Positions 5,142 to 52,735 of a DNA stretch of 64,000 nt are shown here, piece by piece (the stretch's first letter is position 1; each line of letters opens with the position of its first letter). The DNA is from a virus, in the IMG/VR virus record IMGVR_UViG_3300008450_000013, positions 22,811-86,810 of that record. One strand, given 5' to 3'. A model generated the notes under the pieces. The model ran no database searches, had not been told where the DNA came from, and saw only the letters and a program-made list of their open reading frames with translations. The position numbers and the translations under genes are program-made.

Positions 5142-6896
5142 ATGGTTAAAAAAGATCGAGTAAAGTTTCAACCTTGCTCAGAGAAACAAAAGCTAATTTT
5201 GATGGATAACACCACGGACGTTATCCTGATAGGCGGTGGTGAACTTGCGCCTCCGCATTAAAAACAACTTCTTAAACGGTGAAACTCTCTAGTAGACAAT
5301 ACCGTGCCAAGCCCCTGAAGGGTGCAGTGCGTAACGACCAATCCGAAAGGATGTAGGGCTAAGTAGCTCGAAACAGAAGTCCTCGAAAGAGTGAAGATAT
5401 GGTCTGGTCTTTATGGTGACATAAAGCAGCTTAAAAAGCGGAAGTAGATTAACGAACTACTTTGAACACAAACAGCAGGAGGAGGCAAATCGAGGATTTG
5501 CCTTACAAAGAATTTAGATGGTATTAAAGATGGAAAGTTCCGTTGCGTTATTCTGAGACGTTTTGAGCCAGAGCTTAAAAAACAAGGTGGCTTGATTGAT
5601 GAATCCAAGAATATCTACCCACACTTTACAAAAATACCTTACAAAAGTCAACAAAAATTATGGGAATTTCCATCTGGAGCCACAATCGGGTTTTCAGCAA
5701 TATCTTGTGACGATGATTTAGGGAGCTGGCAGGGTAGCCAACTAACGAGGGCTTTGATAGACGAGGCGGCTGATAAGTGGACTGAAAAACAAGTTTTGTT
5801 CTTACAATCTCGTTTGCGTACAGTTGGCTCTGATATTCACCCGCAACTGATTATGTCTTGCAACCCAGACCCTAACAGTTTCTTATTTGAGTGGGTTAAG
5901 TTCTGTCTTGATGAAGACACAGGAGTACCAAAAGAAGGTACTGAGTATCTTATCAGATGGTTCTGTGTAGAAGATAACAAAGCTAAATGGGCTGATAGTC
6001 CAGAAGAGTGCTATGAATTATATGGTGCTCCCAAGAATCTAATTTATGCTCATGGAATGACAGAAGAACAGATGAACGCATTCTCTAAAGAAGAGAAGAT
6101 GCGGTTGTTCATGCCTAAGTCATTCAGGTTCATTCCAACTGGTGTTTTTGACAACCCATATCTACTCCCACCAAAGAATACAAGTTACTTAGCATCTCTC
6201 CTTTCCCAACCTTATGTAAATCAGTTAAAATTTTTACATGGAAGTTGGACAGCACGAGAACTTGGGAGTTCTTACTTCGACAGAAAGTGGGTTCAAATCG
6301 TTGACCAACCTCCCGTAAATGCAACAGCTAGGATACGTTCTTGGGACTTCGCTTCAGAAGAAAAGACAAAAACTAACAACCCCGATTGGACAGCAGGTGT
6401 AAAAATGTCTAGGGATAGGTACGGTATTTACTATATCGAGGATGTTGTCAGAGTGCAGATGCGGATTGACGGTGTTTTAAAAACCGTCATTGAGACTGCT
6501 AAAGCTGACGGTGTAGGCGAATGTGAAGTCTGCATTCCAGTTGACCCTGCAGCAGCGGGTAAGAGTAGTGCTCACTTCTTTCAGAAGGTATTAGCAGAAA
6601 ATGGCATTCCTTGTAAGAAAGCTCAGTCCTCTGGACACAGTAGCAAGCTCACAAGATTTAAACCGTTTTGTGCATTAGCTGAGAGTGGTAGTGTTCGTGT
6701 GGTTCGAGGGGATTGGAACGATGCATTTTTTGCAGAGCTTGAAGCATTCTCTGGTGACAAAGCAATTGAGAGAACTCAGAAGAACGACCAAGTTGATGCT
6801 TGCTCAGATAGTTTTAACAATTTAGCAAGACAATTACAGCTACCTGTATTCTCAGTACCGTCCCTAACAAAAGCCTCTCCTGTCCCAACAATATAG
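5142..6896 (+). CDS. terL: terminase large subunit, split by a group I intron (exons 5142-5240 and 5475-6896)
   Basis: The packaging motor ATPase and headful/cos nuclease. Exon 1 encodes 33 residues ending VILIGGG and then hits a stop (TAA 5259-5261). Exon 2 resumes AGGGKSRICL; joined, the Walker A motif is GGGAGGGKS and the protein is 506 residues, normal for TerL. Walker B is ALIDEAAD. The C-terminal RNase H-like nuclease has WDFA, VDPAAAG and DQVDA acidic residues. Start ATG at 5142 follows AAAGGAG. Without splicing only a 39-residue peptide, or a TTG-started protein lacking the ATPase P-loop, could be made. Position after the candidate small subunit and before portal agrees. Confidence 0.9.
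5241..5474 (+). ncRNA. group I self-splicing intron, 234 nt, no ORF
   Basis: Exon 1 end GCGGTGGT pairs with the internal guide GCCTCCGC (5249-5256) apart from one U-U mismatch, with U.G at the splice site (P1). CTTGC just before the guide pairs with the exon 2 start GCAGG (P10). Core: GACCA (5336-5340) with TGGTC (5400-5404) as P7-like pairing, AACGACC and GAAGATATGGTC core-like strings, and GAAA-loop hairpins at 5341-5352 and 5382-5391. Peripheral hairpins: 5409-5426 (7 bp, GTGA loop), 5429-5439, and 5442-5462. Because G lies at both junctions, cuts at 5240/5241 or 5241/5242 give the same mRNA; the latter leaves the usual terminal G on the intron. Confidence 0.85.
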
Positions 6897-7005: not shown

Positions 7006-8520
7006 ATGCCAGAAGCGACCTCGCCTGATGGCGTTGCAACAGCTCTACAGCCTGACAGTGGGACAACTATACCACGTATCAAATTAGGAAGTCAAGGGTT
7101 TGGAGTATTAAAAACCTCTAACGGACGCATCTACGAAGAAGCTAACGCAGCCTTTAGGATGCCAGCTCGTATCAAAGTTGTGGACGAAATGAGGCTCTCA
7201 CCTCCAGTCAGCATCGCCATGAACGCACTTAAAATGCTCATGAATCGTTCAGAGATGTACGTAGAGCCTTTTGATGACACTCCTAAGCACAGAGAACGTG
7301 CAAAGTTCTTACACTCTTGTTTGCATGACATGGAAGAAACATTTCAGCAAACAATGCAGAATACGTTCCCTGTTCTTGAGTATGGCTTCCACGTATCTGA
7401 AAAAGTATACCGCAGACGCTTGAAAGTAAACGGTAGTAAATACAATGACGGACTCGTAGGGCTTAAATGTCTTGCAACTCGCCCTCAAGCTTCCATTGAA
7501 AAGTGGAACTTCTCAGAAGATGGTAGAGATCTTGTCAGTGTATCACAGTCTATTGCAAACCTCGAAAACAGTTACAGATTCAAAAACCTCACAGATGAAA
7601 ATGGCTTAATTGTCATACCTCGTGAGAAGTTTGTACTCTTCAATGTTGACCCTACAAATGGTAATCCTGAAGGTAACAGCATTCTCAAAGCAGCATATTT
7701 AGCTTACAAGCAATTGACATTGCTCACAGATAATATGATGACAGGTGTTGCCAAAGATACACAGGGACTTCCTGTTATTGGTATTCCTCCTCAGTATATG
7801 TCTGCAGACGCTAGTGACGATCAAAAAGCTGTCTATCAGATGTTCATGAAGATTGTTGATGATTTAGCAAGTGGTACTCAGCGTGGTATTGTTATGCCAA
7901 AGTCTTATGACATGGATTCCAAGGGTGAAATGTTCACTGTGGAATTGTTAGAGTCTAAAGGTGGTAAGGCTTACAACGTGTTAGAGATTATCAAGACACT
8001 TCAAGCTAACATTCTTTCTGTGCTTTCGTGTGATGCTGTCAAGATGGGTAGTGATACTTCTGGGAGTTTGTCACTTGAGGACGGGGACACGAACCTCTTG
8101 GCGATGGCTGTTAGTTATCGGTTGATGGAGATTGCTAACGCTTTAAACAAGGATTTAGTGCAGCAGTTATGGTCACTCAACGGATGGGACTTGTCAGAAA
8201 TGCCTCAGATTAAATTCAAGGATGTTTCTAATGTATCTCAGGAAACTTTCAGTAAGTTTATACAACGAGTGGCTTCAACAGGTTTGTTAGAACTTGATCG
8301 TGGTGTCATGAACCGTGTACGAGAAGTCGGTGGATTTGATTTACTTCCACATGATCTTCCAATTCAAGAAGATATGTTATCAACAACTATGGCTGGAAAA
8401 GCTTCTAGCGCATCCGAGGGTATGGAAGTTGGGGTTGGTAATACTGTTGAGGGTGGGACGTCTAAAGGTGGCGGTAAGAAGACTGACAATTCTGCGAAAA
8501 ATAACGATAATAAGGGGTGA
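7006..8520 (+). CDS. portal protein
   Basis: A 504-residue protein between terL and the head protease, the usual portal position and size. The portal ring forms the DNA entry/exit vertex and docks the terminase. The region MPARIKVVDEMRLSPPVSIAM resembles the start of DUF935/Mu gp29-type portals, followed by the helical body; the C-terminal 50 residues are Gly/Ser/Lys-rich and probably disordered. ATG follows AAGGAGCAATAA. Its stop overlaps the start of the inserted GIY-YIG gene. Confidence 0.8.
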   Translation: MPEATSPDGVATALQPDSGTTIPRIKLGSQGFGVLKTSNGRIYEEANAAFRMPARIKVVDEMRLSPPVSIAMNALKMLMNRSEMYVEPFDDTPKHRERAKFLHSCLHDMEETFQQTMQNTFPVLEYGFHVSEKVYRRRLKVNGSKYNDGLVGLKCLATRPQASIEKWNFSEDGRDLVSVSQSIANLENSYRFKNLTDENGLIVIPREKFVLFNVDPTNGNPEGNSILKAAYLAYKQLTLLTDNMMTGVAKDTQGLPVIGIPPQYMSADASDDQKAVYQMFMKIVDDLASGTQRGIVMPKSYDMDSKGEMFTVELLESKGGKAYNVLEIIKTLQANILSVLSCDAVKMGSDTSGSLSLEDGDTNLLAMAVSYRLMEIANALNKDLVQQLWSLNGWDLSEMPQIKFKDVSNVSQETFSKFIQRVASTGLLELDRGVMNRVREVGGFDLLPHDLPIQEDMLSTTMAGKASSASEGMEVGVGNTVEGGTSKGGGKKTDNSAKNNDNKG

Positions 8521-9323
8521 TGATATTGGCAATTTTATATTGGATACATTTACCTGAGCACACTGATATTACTTCAAGTGGGTATGTTGGGATAACAGTC
8601 AAAACCCTATCTCACCGTTGGTCTAGTCATAAAACTGCAACTAAAACTGCGTCTAAACAACATTTACCTATTGTACGTGCAATAAATAAGTACGGACATG
8701 AAAATTTGCTTGTAGAACCTCTTTTAGAAGGCTCTGAAGAATATGTAGCTTTAATAGAAAACAAACTCCGACCCTCTTGTGGTATTGGTTGGAATTGTGC
8801 CATAGGTGGTCAAGCTACAGGAGTGGGGAGAAAACATTCACCTGAAAGTATCGCCAAACGAGTTGCTAAGGTGAGAGGTACAAAACGTTCTGAAGAGACT
8901 AAATTGAAACAATCCCTCGCTTCCAAAGGTAAACCTAAATCTCCTGAACATAGACAAAAATGCGCGATTGCTAATCTAGGTAAGATTAGATCACAAGAAG
9001 CTAAAGACACTCAAAGAGATAAGATGTTAGGCAAGAAGAAGATAACTGAGGAAGGTAGACTAAAGTTATCAGAGTACCACAAAAATCTAAAACCTTGGAA
9101 AAGGTCAAGGGCTAAATTCTCTTTGTGGTCTGGTGCAGCTACTCTGTTTGATTTGTTCTGTAAAGGGAATACATTGACAAATGGATTTGTGCGAACAGTC
9201 TTAAATGACAAGAACATATCTCCTATTACAATTAGGAATATGATTGAATCAGGATGGAACCCAAACGAAGATCAAGAATACCTTTCTTGGTTAGAAGAAA
9301 GAAAGGATAACGATGTCACATGA
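8520..9323 (+). CDS. GIY-YIG homing endonuclease with NUMOD3 motifs
   Basis: A 267-residue protein. The N-terminus has LYWIHLPE and SGYVGIT, the two halves of the GIY-YIG nuclease fold, and RWSSHK with the usual arginine. From about residue 100 come repeated NUMOD3-type DNA-binding motifs (GRKHSPESIAKRV, GTKRSEETKLKQS, GKPKSPEHRQKC). Such freestanding enzymes cut intronless/HEG-less alleles and spread by repair. It overlaps the portal stop (TGATG) and the protease start, so it is a clean insertion in the head operon. The ATG at 8520 after AAGGGGTG was chosen over GTG 8517. Confidence 0.9.
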   Translation: MILAILYWIHLPEHTDITSSGYVGITVKTLSHRWSSHKTATKTASKQHLPIVRAINKYGHENLLVEPLLEGSEEYVALIENKLRPSCGIGWNCAIGGQATGVGRKHSPESIAKRVAKVRGTKRSEETKLKQSLASKGKPKSPEHRQKCAIANLGKIRSQEAKDTQRDKMLGKKKITEEGRLKLSEYHKNLKPWKRSRAKFSLWSGAATLFDLFCKGNTLTNGFVRTVLNDKNISPITIRNMIESGWNPNEDQEYLSWLEERKDNDVT

Positions 9324-41800: not shown

Positions 41801-42118
41801 CTAAAAACTAAAGTTAAAATTTCCCATGTGCTGTCGCATTTGCTCATGTAATTGCTCTTGAGCGATACAAGCATCATACAGTGTTTGGTGCTGTAAGTCT
41901 AGGCTTTTCAAGTATTCCAACAAATCTGGCTCCCTCTTGTATGCATAAGCTACGCCATAATGATACTGTGTACAACCTACAGAATATCCTTTGTCATCGA
42001 AGAGAGCTGTCTTGTCTGCAAGAACTCCTACGTTCCCTTGTGGAGTTACTGATACCATTCCATTCTCGTAAAGTGTTAGTAGGATGTTTCTGAATAAAGG
42101 GATTGTTATATAGACCAT
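41801..42118 (-). CDS. hypothetical protein, 105 aa
   Basis: N-terminal beta part, C-terminal helix rich in Gln/His (AQEQLHEQMRQHMG). Start overlaps the end of the upstream HNH gene by 13 bases. Not recognised. Confidence 0.55.
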   Translation of the reverse strand: MVYITIPLFRNILLTLYENGMVSVTPQGNVGVLADKTALFDDKGYSVGCTQYHYGVAYAYKREPDLLEYLKSLDLQHQTLYDACIAQEQLHEQMRQHMGNFNFSF

Positions 42119-42696
42119 AATTGCTCCTTTCCGTGTCTATCTGTGTAACCAAAACCTTTCGTATTTAGCTCTGCAATCATCTTTTGTCTAAGGATAATCG
42201 AGTTTCTAAATGCAGTCATTACACCGAGTTTCTTTATTGAAAATGCTTTGTTATGCCTGCCTTCTTCATCAAACCAAGTTACCACATAATACCATCTGCC
42301 TGTGCCATATTGACAAAGGGATACTCCTGTAATTCCTGTTGTGTTATTAGATTGCTTAATAATATTTCTCATATTCTCAGATTGTGACACAATTCTGAGG
42401 TTACTTATCCTATTATCATACCTATTACCGTTGATGTGATCCACTTGTTTATTACCCACATTATGCCCAAACATTTCAAGAATTAATCTATGAGCTTGTT
42501 TCTTTTTACCATTTAATCTGACAACATAATATCCATACACATTTAACCCTCCTGCTGGTGTATGTGCCGCAGCAGATACTACACTATACCCAACCCCTGT
42601 CCTTTTATCTACTTTGTGCATTAAGCAACTAGGACTTGTTTCATCGTAGTAGAACATATCCGCTGCTGAACTATTTTTAAGCTCACTTCTATTCAT
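42106..42696 (-). CDS. HNH homing endonuclease with AP2-type DNA-binding domain
   Basis: A 196-residue protein. AHRLILEMFG, then QVDHINGNRYDNRISNLR is the HNH_3 nuclease core, and GITGVSLCQYGTGRWYYVV with FSIKKLG an AP2-like three-strand domain. Freestanding mobile endonuclease lying between the metallophosphoesterase and the 41801 gene; overlaps both. Confidence 0.9.
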   Translation of the reverse strand: MNRSELKNSSAADMFYYDETSPSCLMHKVDKRTGVGYSVVSAAAHTPAGGLNVYGYYVVRLNGKKKQAHRLILEMFGHNVGNKQVDHINGNRYDNRISNLRIVSQSENMRNIIKQSNNTTGITGVSLCQYGTGRWYYVVTWFDEEGRHNKAFSIKKLGVMTAFRNSIILRQKMIAELNTKGFGYTDRHGKEQLWSI

Positions 42697-44266: not shown

Positions 44267-44779
44267 TTAACTCACTCCTTTTAAAATTGAACGAACAGCA
44301 GCTTTCCTATTTGCTTCGTTATTGACATTATATTCTTCGTGCCAATCATAGTCAAGGATAAACTGAACAATATCATCTTTATTTTCATTCTTGAAGATAG
44401 CTATCAATTCCTTCTCTAATGTAGCTTCCTCTTCTGTCACACCATGCTTGAACATGTATGTTTTAATATCGTGGCATGTGTGGCAGAGAATGTCAAGTCC
44501 ATCTTTCTCGCAGAACAGCCGTTGCATAAACCCTTGCACATCTTCCCAACAACTCAACACACCACATTCTTCACGATGGTCTACAGCAACTTGTTTCGCA
44601 GAGAACAATCCCTTACATTTAGCACACTCGTAGCACACTTTCTGTCTAGGATTGTCTCCAACGTAAGGTCGTTTAGCTGCTGCTAGGGCTGCATATATGG
44701 GAGGGTGACGTTGTGAAATCTTTCGTAAAGAGCTTCTGAGCCATACAAAGAAGTTTACAGGCTTTTTAGCTTTCTTCAT
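44267..44779 (-). CDS. HNH-type endonuclease with zinc-binding cysteines
   Basis: A 170-residue protein. CYECAKCKGLF, QVAVDHREECG and ILCHTCHDIKT form a CxxC...DH...CxxC HNH arrangement, with His as general base. The ATG at 44779 after AAAGGTGG was preferred over 44797. It sits beside the 5'-exonuclease gene; it could be a homing enzyme or a packaging/recombination nuclease. Confidence 0.8.
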   Translation of the reverse strand: MKKAKKPVNFFVWLRSSLRKISQRHPPIYAALAAAKRPYVGDNPRQKVCYECAKCKGLFSAKQVAVDHREECGVLSCWEDVQGFMQRLFCEKDGLDILCHTCHDIKTYMFKHGVTEEEATLEKELIAIFKNENKDDIVQFILDYDWHEEYNVNNEANRKAAVRSILKGVS

Positions 44780-44969
44780 TCCAACCACCTTTCTCATAAC
44801 TACTCATACAAGCTTTGTCAATAAGCCACAAGCTCTTAGGAACCTCCACAGAAATACCAGCATTCCATTCCTCTTCCATTGCACAGCTCCCCATAGCACG
44901 ACGTTTAGCAGACTCTTCAAATAGCATCCAAGCTGGTAGGCAGTTGTTCCAGCTCATTGTTGTTTCCAA
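44766..44969 (-). CDS. hypothetical protein, 67 aa
   Basis: Trp-rich small protein (MSWNNCLPAWMLFEE) overlapping the exonuclease end by 16 bases and the HNH start by 14. A start at the internal Met five residues in is equally possible. Not recognised. Confidence 0.5.
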   Translation of the reverse strand: METTMSWNNCLPAWMLFEESAKRRAMGSCAMEEEWNAGISVEVPKSLWLIDKACMSSYEKGGWNEES

Positions 44970-48515: not shown

Positions 48516-48796
48516 GTTTTCTCCTTTGTAATAAACCTACTATGAATCCACATACCTAACATCGCTCCGCTACCACTACCAAATCCTATCCAAAATACTA
48601 GCCAACCCCATCCATGCTTACTAATCACTGTGATAGTCCAAACTTCCATGACTGCCATCATAAGCGATACAGGCATAATAAGCAAGTAGTGTTTGCCAGA
48701 TACTGATAATTGCTGAAATGCTTTGAGTGCAACAAAACAGAAGCTTGCAAAGAATGCTAGGAAGTACATTAGCTGTGGTTCGTACACATTACTCAT
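48512..48796 (-). CDS. membrane protein, 94 aa
   Basis: About three hydrophobic spans (residues 9-26, 37-56, 59-80). The ATG at 48796 after GAGGATAGCT overlaps the upstream stop; the longer frame from 48835 has no ribosome site. Function unknown. Confidence 0.6.
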   Translation of the reverse strand: MSNVYEPQLMYFLAFFASFCFVALKAFQQLSVSGKHYLLIMPVSLMMAVMEVWTITVISKHGWGWLVFWIGFGSGSGAMLGMWIHSRFITKEKT

Positions 48797-49403
48797 AGCT
48801 ATCCTCAAACAACTCCTTGCAATTCTTAATATCATAAGAAATTAGAACATGAAACACCTTTTCACTGAGTACATCCTTAAAGTCTCTCGCCATAACTTTT
48901 AAGTAGTTTTCTTTAGCAATTTTGTATGCCTTTCCAGCTTTCTCCACAGTAGAGTGCTGGCTAATATGGACTTTCTTGTTATTTACCTTTAAACGTGCAA
49001 CAAAATTCCCATGTCTATCAATAGATACACCGATAGGCAACTCCTTGTCTATTCTACTGGATGCTAGTAACATGTTAATCTTTCTCGGAACAAAACAACA
49101 ATTGTCCTCTGAATAAAGCTTGCCACAGCCAAGAATGTCTTTATCTAACTGACAATCTTCTAAATCAAACCCTACTTGGTGGTTACACCACTCCGCAAAG
49201 AACTGAAAGTCCAAGAAGTTTTCAGACACTTCACAATCCATGTAGGAGGCGTGTTTATCTCTGTTCCTTGAGTAGCACCGTCTCAACATGTCGTACCATT
49301 TATTGTACTCTTTTGTATTGTGTTGAACACCATCAGAGTCTCTGTAAGTCGCTTTGTATTTTCCTGTGACATAGACTCCCTTTCCAAATATTAACTTTTT
49401 CAT
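48789..49403 (-). CDS. HNH-like homing endonuclease with AP2-like domain
   Basis: A 204-residue protein. WYDMLRRCYSRNRD, then NFLDFQFFAEWCNHQ, LDKDILGCGKLYSEDNC and VPRKINMLL are the marks of a phage family of HNH/AP2 mobile endonucleases; the C-terminal half (GVSIDRHGNFVARLKV) is AP2-like. It is inserted between the dATP/dGTP diphosphohydrolase-like gene and a membrane protein gene, overlapping both. Confidence 0.8.
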   Translation of the reverse strand: MKKLIFGKGVYVTGKYKATYRDSDGVQHNTKEYNKWYDMLRRCYSRNRDKHASYMDCEVSENFLDFQFFAEWCNHQVGFDLEDCQLDKDILGCGKLYSEDNCCFVPRKINMLLASSRIDKELPIGVSIDRHGNFVARLKVNNKKVHISQHSTVEKAGKAYKIAKENYLKVMARDFKDVLSEKVFHVLISYDIKNCKELFEDSYE

Positions 49404-52150: not shown

Positions 52151-52735
52151 TTACTTTTGTTTGTTTCGTACACCTTCTATAAATTTTTCACAAATCAATA
52201 GAATTTCGTCATCGTTCATCTCGCCTCTCATTAAGTTTACTTGCCAAAGAACTATTCTTACATTATCTTTGGTGTAACCTTTAGTAGAATCTATTCTATC
52301 AATACTAGGTGAATACGGATTCTTACTGTACCTATTGTGTGGTGAGAAATCAAAAGAAAATCCGGTAATCTCACAAAACCCTATTTTCAACTTATCTTCT
52401 ATCCAATCACACGTAATATCAAAATTTTCATATTGTTCTGATCTTCTACAAGCACCTTTATATAAAGTTTTAGCCCTTCCTGAAATACTTTTATAAAAAG
52501 AACTACTTCTCTCTTTGGATTCAGCTTTCTTTATGGGGTCTTCTGAACATTTTTTAGCTCTGATTTTTCTTTTAATTTTGTATTCTTCATTATTAGCATA
52601 CATTTTTCTACCATATTCTAATACACATAATTTGCAACTAGGATGTATCCTGTTCGCACCGTTACTCAAAGTGCCGTTTTTATAAAAATAAGATACATCT
52701 TTTTCTATACCACATGTTTTACAAACTTTATTCAC
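52151..52735 (-). CDS. HNH homing endonuclease inserted at the polymerase start
   Basis: A 194-residue protein with GTG start after GAGGTAAGTT. N-terminal zinc finger CKTCGIEKDVSYFY...CKLC; C-terminal nuclease SIDRIDSTKGYTKDNVRIV, an HNH-type core with Asn and following VLWQVNLMRGEM. It has its own consensus promoter and lies 9 bp upstream of DNA polymerase, with a copy of the polymerase's first codons just upstream, so it is a recent insertion. Confidence 0.85.
   Translation of the reverse strand: MNKVCKTCGIEKDVSYFYKNGTLSNGANRIHPSCKLCVLEYGRKMYANNEEYKIKRKIRAKKCSEDPIKKAESKERSSSFYKSISGRAKTLYKGACRRSEQYENFDITCDWIEDKLKIGFCEITGFSFDFSPHNRYSKNPYSPSIDRIDSTKGYTKDNVRIVLWQVNLMRGEMNDDEILLICEKFIEGVRNKQK

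Follow-up and report, generated by a model that had tools for sequence, protein, structure and literature searches.

The window analysed here is a 64-kb stretch corresponding to bases 22811-86810 of an 86.8-kb IMG/VR virus record, and it contains a terminase gene (terL) that is encoded in two parts. Exon 1 (5142-5240, + strand) starts with the ATG at 5142, just downstream of AAAGGAG, and contributes 33 codons (MVKK...VILIGGG), the final eight bases of which also form the 5′ strand of the RNA helix P1. An earlier note on this DNA described the start frame as ending after VILIGGG with a stop 19 bases further on, and it reads in just this way, continuing through ELAPPH to a TAA at 5259-5261. The ATPase frame restarts with AGGGKS at 5475, and exon 2 (5475-6896, + strand; stop codon at 6894-6896) includes the Walker A lysine and serine, the Walker B motif, and the nuclease domain, as assigned from Pfam matches of the joined protein and from homologues. 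Joining 5142-5240 to 5475-6896 generates a TerL of 506 residues with no internal stop and with matches to Pfam Terminase_6N and Terminase_6C, in agreement with the full-length product that had been predicted; there is no sequence-level match between the joined TerL and solved structures.

An active terL elsewhere in the genome had been raised as one finding that would count against an intron, and no second terL is present in the whole 86.8-kb record. The comparison with intronless terL genes that had been proposed is provided by L004, a different contig, in which terL is uninterrupted, has the same N-terminus, and encodes a protein with 94% identity to the joined TerL, thus representing an empty site. 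Empty Walker A sites are also present in L010, L007, and others.

Intron identity and RNA anatomy

The two exons are separated by 234 nt (5241-5474, + strand, last base A5474), with boundaries set by the reading frame, the U5240.G5249 pair, and the P10 helix. We consider it very probable (roughly 0.93) that this segment is a genuine group I intron, mobile and ORF-less, that interrupts terL within its Walker A codons, with its splicing predicted from the anatomy described below. On the + strand, 5241-5474 contains no ORF reaching 40 aa, and hence no internal homing endonuclease ORF.

A leave-one-out covariance model, built from 24 aligned homologous introns with the window copy excluded, matches 5226-5486 at 221.9 bits (E 4.1e-71), covering both exon ends, and this is its sole match within the 64-kb window. 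When applied to the loci of 38 relatives the model matches the interrupted ones and gives no match at any intact Walker A, with L010 matched at a separate intron in Walker B. The Infernal search with Rfam RF00028 (Intron_gpI) that the earlier note proposed did yield a match, although a sub-threshold one: in a 421-nt segment, 5231-5426 aligns to the model from end to end (model positions 1-253) and scores 44.9 bits (E 2.2e-10), with the core P3-P9 alignment in common, and the gathering threshold is 50 bits. With default settings, Rfam gives no match anywhere in the window, and there are no further RF00028 matches in the record. The Walker A introns of L005 (41.7 bits) and L014 (48.1 bits) similarly fall below the threshold. 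The folding energy of the single sequence is ordinary (minimum free energy z -0.72).

The structure was evaluated in a 25-row intron alignment that includes the window copy, in which the proposed pairings are formed in 95.6% of cells, compared to 73.7% for shuffles and ~42% for slid controls, and compensatory changes are present in 50 of the 67 pairs. P1 is formed by 5233-5241 with 5248-5256, including U5240.G5249 at the 5′ splice site and one U.U mismatch; it is paired in 97% of cells, and the splice site U-G is present in 24 of the 25 introns. The internal guide sequence (5244-5256, + strand) consists of CUUGC, the P10 strand, followed by GCCUCCGC, the P1 3′ strand, and pairs with both exon 1 (5233-5240) and exon 2 (5475-5479). 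In P10, CUUGC at 5244-5248 pairs with GCAGG at 5475-5479, and 14 introns have G-C at the alignment pair 26-303 whereas 10 have C-G, a switch that goes with the insertion register.

P3 (5267-5272 with 5375-5380; + strand, as are all of the helices) is paired in 100% of cells with compensation in five of its six pairs, and encloses P4, P5, P6, P6a, the P7 5′ strand, P7.1, and P7.2. Of these, P4 (5276-5280/5301-5305) and P5 (5286-5288/5294-5296), together spanning 5276-5305, are 99.3% and 100% paired, respectively, with compensatory changes, and are followed in the 25-intron alignment by P6 (5306-5307/5329-5330) and P6a (5311-5314/5320-5323), which span 5306-5330. P7, the guanosine-binding helix, is a pseudoknot between GACCA (5336-5340) and UGGUC (5400-5404), the latter lying directly 3′ of the conserved J8/7 sequence GAAGAUA. 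All five of its pairs are formed in 100% of cells, three are compensated, and the guanosine-binding pair G5336-C5404 is G-C in 25 of 25 introns. P7.1 (5341-5344/5349-5352) and P7.2 (5356-5360/5365-5369), spanning 5341-5369, are 100% paired with every pair compensated, and the P8 hairpin (5382-5391; CUC GAAA GAG) is paired in 79.7% of cells in a region where the alignment is gappy. P9 (5410-5425), P9.1 (5429-5439), and P9.2 (5442-5462), spanning 5410-5462, are 91-99% paired with many compensatory changes. GNRA-type loops are present in P7.1, P8, and P9.

Two extra stems, P7.1 and P7.2, are typical of subgroup IA, and together with P9.1 and P9.2 they point to IA2, the subgroup to which we assign the window intron. 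The P1, P10, GACCA/TGGTC, and GNRA hairpin elements that the earlier note reported have all been located and are backed by covariation, which shows, at the level of the aligned sequences, that the intron folds as a group I ribozyme after transcription. The central claim of that note, an ORF-less group I intron placed exactly in the terL Walker A codons, has strong support, from homology and covariation as well as from the empty alleles and the restored frame.

From this anatomy we infer that the window intron is spliced. To form P1, the guide segment GCCUCC would pair with the exon 1 glycine codons GG(U)GGU, and an exogenous guanosine bound in P7 would cleave after U5240. GCAGG of exon 2 would then dock on CUUGC to form P10, and ligation would join GGT to GCA, restoring GGGAGGGKS. 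Unspliced terL RNA would give only a 38-aa peptide, such that TerL production should depend on splicing.

Introns and inteins at the Walker A motif

Relatives were gathered using TerL peptides outside of Walker A. Among these the motif is readable in 86 distinct contigs, of which 68 are uninterrupted, 17 contain an intron (including L021, which also bears an intein), and one (L197) contains an intein only; the translations were tallied manually, and some of the contigs counted are near-identical. With matches to DNA patterns added, 33 distinct introns of 220-259 nt were delimited in the Walker A motif, and they occupy three registers. The window, L014, L051, and others have the intron four residues before the lysine (GGG|AGGGKS); in L005, L019, L022, L240, and others it is five residues before; and in L018 it is two residues before. 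Removal of the intron restores G-G-x-A-G-x-G-K-S/A exactly in 33 of 33 cases.

The inteins, all of LAGLIDADG type, are located at GK|S of the Walker A motif in L021 (4945-6060; Hint and LAGLIDADG matches), L181 (from 8843), and L197 (before its SHTCL). In L021 and L181 the same motif also contains a group I intron, with the intein five or six codons further downstream. Inteins and group I introns are known to prefer conserved sites (PMC2814812), and the suggestion that the ATP-binding loop is a favoured homing target is borne out insofar as the motif is a hotspot, with introns in 17 of the 86 contigs and inteins too; homing itself is a plausible reading of this pattern. The searches made turned up this Walker A intron in no cultured phage, and a partial paper collection gave no publication that names a group I intron along with both Walker A and terminase. 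Among bacterial genome contigs there are 58 pattern matches, and only L313, a terL intron, passes the P7/J8/7 filter.

Insertions are also present elsewhere in terL. L005 (6277-6545) and L010 (6277-6560) contain a second group I intron at Walker B (LTR|xLIDEA), with RF00028 scores of 81.5 and 83.3 bits, respectively, and because the L010 copy reaches 127 bits under the Walker A model the same intron family occupies both sites. L313 (CALMKR010000014.1, a contig of a bacterial MAG) has an insertion at the same Walker B residue, and further interruptions at Walker A and close to the C-terminus make its terL a heavily invaded gene; an HNH-like ORF lies upstream. Relatives of the intron core are found in the terL genes of Klebsiella phages P284 and ZH4, far downstream of Walker A and with an ORF following. 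In L002 (Klebsiella phage P284; 3001-3786) and L003 the group I intron-like sequence lies 3′ of Walker A in a Drulisvirus-type terL, the ORF that follows it is weakly similar to the window GIY-YIG protein described below (31-33% identity), and the terminase is annotated as split CDSs. The L028 record has three RF00028 matches with insertions elsewhere in terL, and L168 has an insertion near residue 72, which suggests that the whole of terL is often invaded.

The 3′ splice site

At the 3′ splice junction (5473-5475, + strand; C-A|G) the window intron ends in ACA|GCAGG, with A5474 at the omega position replacing the canonical terminal G, the absence of which is omitted from the earlier account. 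The terminal G of group I introns is conserved and nearly universal, yet is not by itself defining, and the assignment to group I follows from the core and the homology despite its absence. The terminal base is G in 31 of the 33 introns and A in two, the window copy and the Walker A intron of L313, which has the same ACA|GCAGG end and an otherwise good fold. As L313 was assembled separately, an error confined to the window sequence would explain the A poorly. A search of viral contigs for additional introns ending in ACA|GC gave two pattern matches, both in unrelated GC-rich sequence, and exact searches of other viral contigs with the window's own intron sequence gave none. C5473 (omega-1) pairs with G5407 to form P9.0, which supports the omega register at 5474; in the 25-row alignment the corresponding column (215-300) is A-U in 17 introns and G-C in three including the window, and L313, which lies outside of this alignment, likewise has G with C.

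Established ribozyme work predicts impaired exon ligation for an intron ending in A, and in the classic Tetrahymena experiments it was reportedly accepted only once the binding site had been changed. If the Tetrahymena rule holds here, ligation at 5474/5475 would be poor unless there is a one-base slide or some other compensation. The A may thus be used as it stands, both splice sites may be slid by one base, or splicing may be poor. We put the use of omega-A for splicing at a little under even odds, and that the copy is crippled or the sequence wrong is a substantial minority possibility.

A crippled copy of a real group I intron, in which omega-A prevents or delays the second step such that TerL is limited or the lineage is declining, seems rather improbable. 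Sister introns have kept the terminal G almost throughout (31 of 33), and with an unchanged P7 guanosine site (G-C in 25 of 25) an A would be expected to bind poorly, both of which would fit a defective copy; however, both exons remain intact, with normal constraint on the protein (L004 is 94% identical), the record offers no second terL, and the separately assembled L313 shares the ACA|GCAGG end in an otherwise good fold. We regard it as unlikely that both splice sites lie one base downstream, with cleavage after G5241, exon 2 beginning at C5476, and G5475 serving as the terminal base, even though the window mRNA would be unchanged, G5241-C5248 is paired in an extended P1, CAGG still pairs in P10, and exon 2 starts with G in 33 of 33 introns. 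Such a slide forfeits the U.G pair that 24 of 25 introns have at the 5′ splice site and needs a G-A pair where P9.0 G5407-C5473 sets omega at 5474, and it would alter the L313 protein, giving GGGTGGGKS in place of GGGAGGGKS.

Mobility, endonucleases, and known systems

In a TerL tree of 75 rows there are at least 16 changes between intron and no intron (12 of them forced by starred branches), and 20 with a five-state label. The window, L005, and L004 form a single well-supported clade with TerL >90% identical that contains three states: the intron described here in the window, a different intron three bases upstream in L005, and none in L004. The window and L005 are 96.5% identical in TerL and 60.6% identical in the intron, whereas the L241 and L251 introns are 94.7% identical with TerL at 49.6% (intron identities include 12-base exon flanks). 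The registers are mixed inside supported clades of the intron tree (e.g. L082, L019, L021, and L018), this being a quick tree of short sequences. Exon-block nucleotide identities between the window and L004, L005, and L010 are noisy and show no clear co-conversion tract. TerL thus changes much more slowly than do the presence, register, and sequence of the intron, and the element family therefore moves between phages and shifts register within the motif. The repeated GGN codons let one guide sequence pair in different registers, and a shift by reverse splicing would fit these repeats, with independent homing events possible as well. It is a tentative proposal that the window intron ligates with omega-A despite an ordinary G-C site, held by P9.0 and P10, in a family shifting among the three Walker A registers, perhaps through guide-directed reverse splicing.

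The earlier note suggested that a GIY-YIG gene 1.6 kb away may mobilise the intron. The gene (8517-9323, + strand), located between the portal and S49 protease genes, encodes a GIY-YIG-type homing endonuclease (phrog_314 match, E 8e-22), and the distance is correct from the end of terL but is 3.0 kb from the intron. Mobilisation of ORF-less group I introns by freestanding endonucleases, or collaborative homing, is established for phage introns (PMC3984707), and the window resembles these systems in having an ORF-less intron in a conserved phage gene together with freestanding endonuclease genes in the genome. The GIY-YIG gene is also missing from the intronless near-relative L004. The window differs from them in that no endonuclease is tied to its intron: among relatives with the same gene order, the GIY-YIG gene is present in L007, L008, and L010, all with empty Walker A sites, and is absent from L014, L005, and L019, all with Walker A introns, L014 in the same register as the window. 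The gene thus does not track the intron among relatives and we rejected it as the mobiliser; from these comparisons it is not the general agent of intron movement, its spreading of the window intron by collaborative homing is most doubtful, and it may serve another target. Relatives of the gene are present at the same or nearby places in several phages, and those at the same place are only 35-41% identical, such that their specificities may differ. Four further freestanding endonucleases are encoded in the window, all on the - strand (42106-42696, 44267-44797, 48789-49403, and 52151-52735), belonging to HNH families with one that is endonuclease VII-like.

The site of the window intron is strikingly recurrent, and its 3′ end is unusual. 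Group I introns are known in the terL genes of Bastillevirinae (phiAGATE, SIOphi), where they are spliced in infected cells and, for SIOphi, also in vitro (PMC11878797). The likeness extends to the intron class and to its position in a phage terL, but the Bastillevirinae introns have a mean length of 802 nt, many contain homing endonuclease ORFs, and they occur in five of 52 terL genes, whereas the window intron is 234 nt and ORF-less; the passages of that account covered here make no mention of the Walker A site or of a short ORF-less family (PMC11878797). Mycobacteriophage TerL1 proteins have inteins in Walker A at a classic site between the lysine and the next residue (PMC5050341), which share both motif and protein family with the GK|S inteins of L021, L181, and L197. 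Those undergo protein splicing, whereas the introns described here are RNA elements positioned two to five codons upstream of the lysine.

Since default Rfam scans miss these short introns, annotations of these phages will probably show the packaging ATPase as broken or truncated. Reading frames alone do not distinguish the intron from a frameshifted or disrupted pseudogene or from a programmed translational bypass of 234 nt, but the full group I core with covariation, the homologous introns at the same junction, and the empty alleles make both extremely improbable. The group I intron lies in a nine-codon motif that is a hotspot for mobile elements, with introns at three registers as well as inteins, sometimes both, and their turnover is visible between phages with TerL proteins >90% identical. 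This makes testable both the movement of ORF-less introns between phages and registers and natural splicing without a terminal G.
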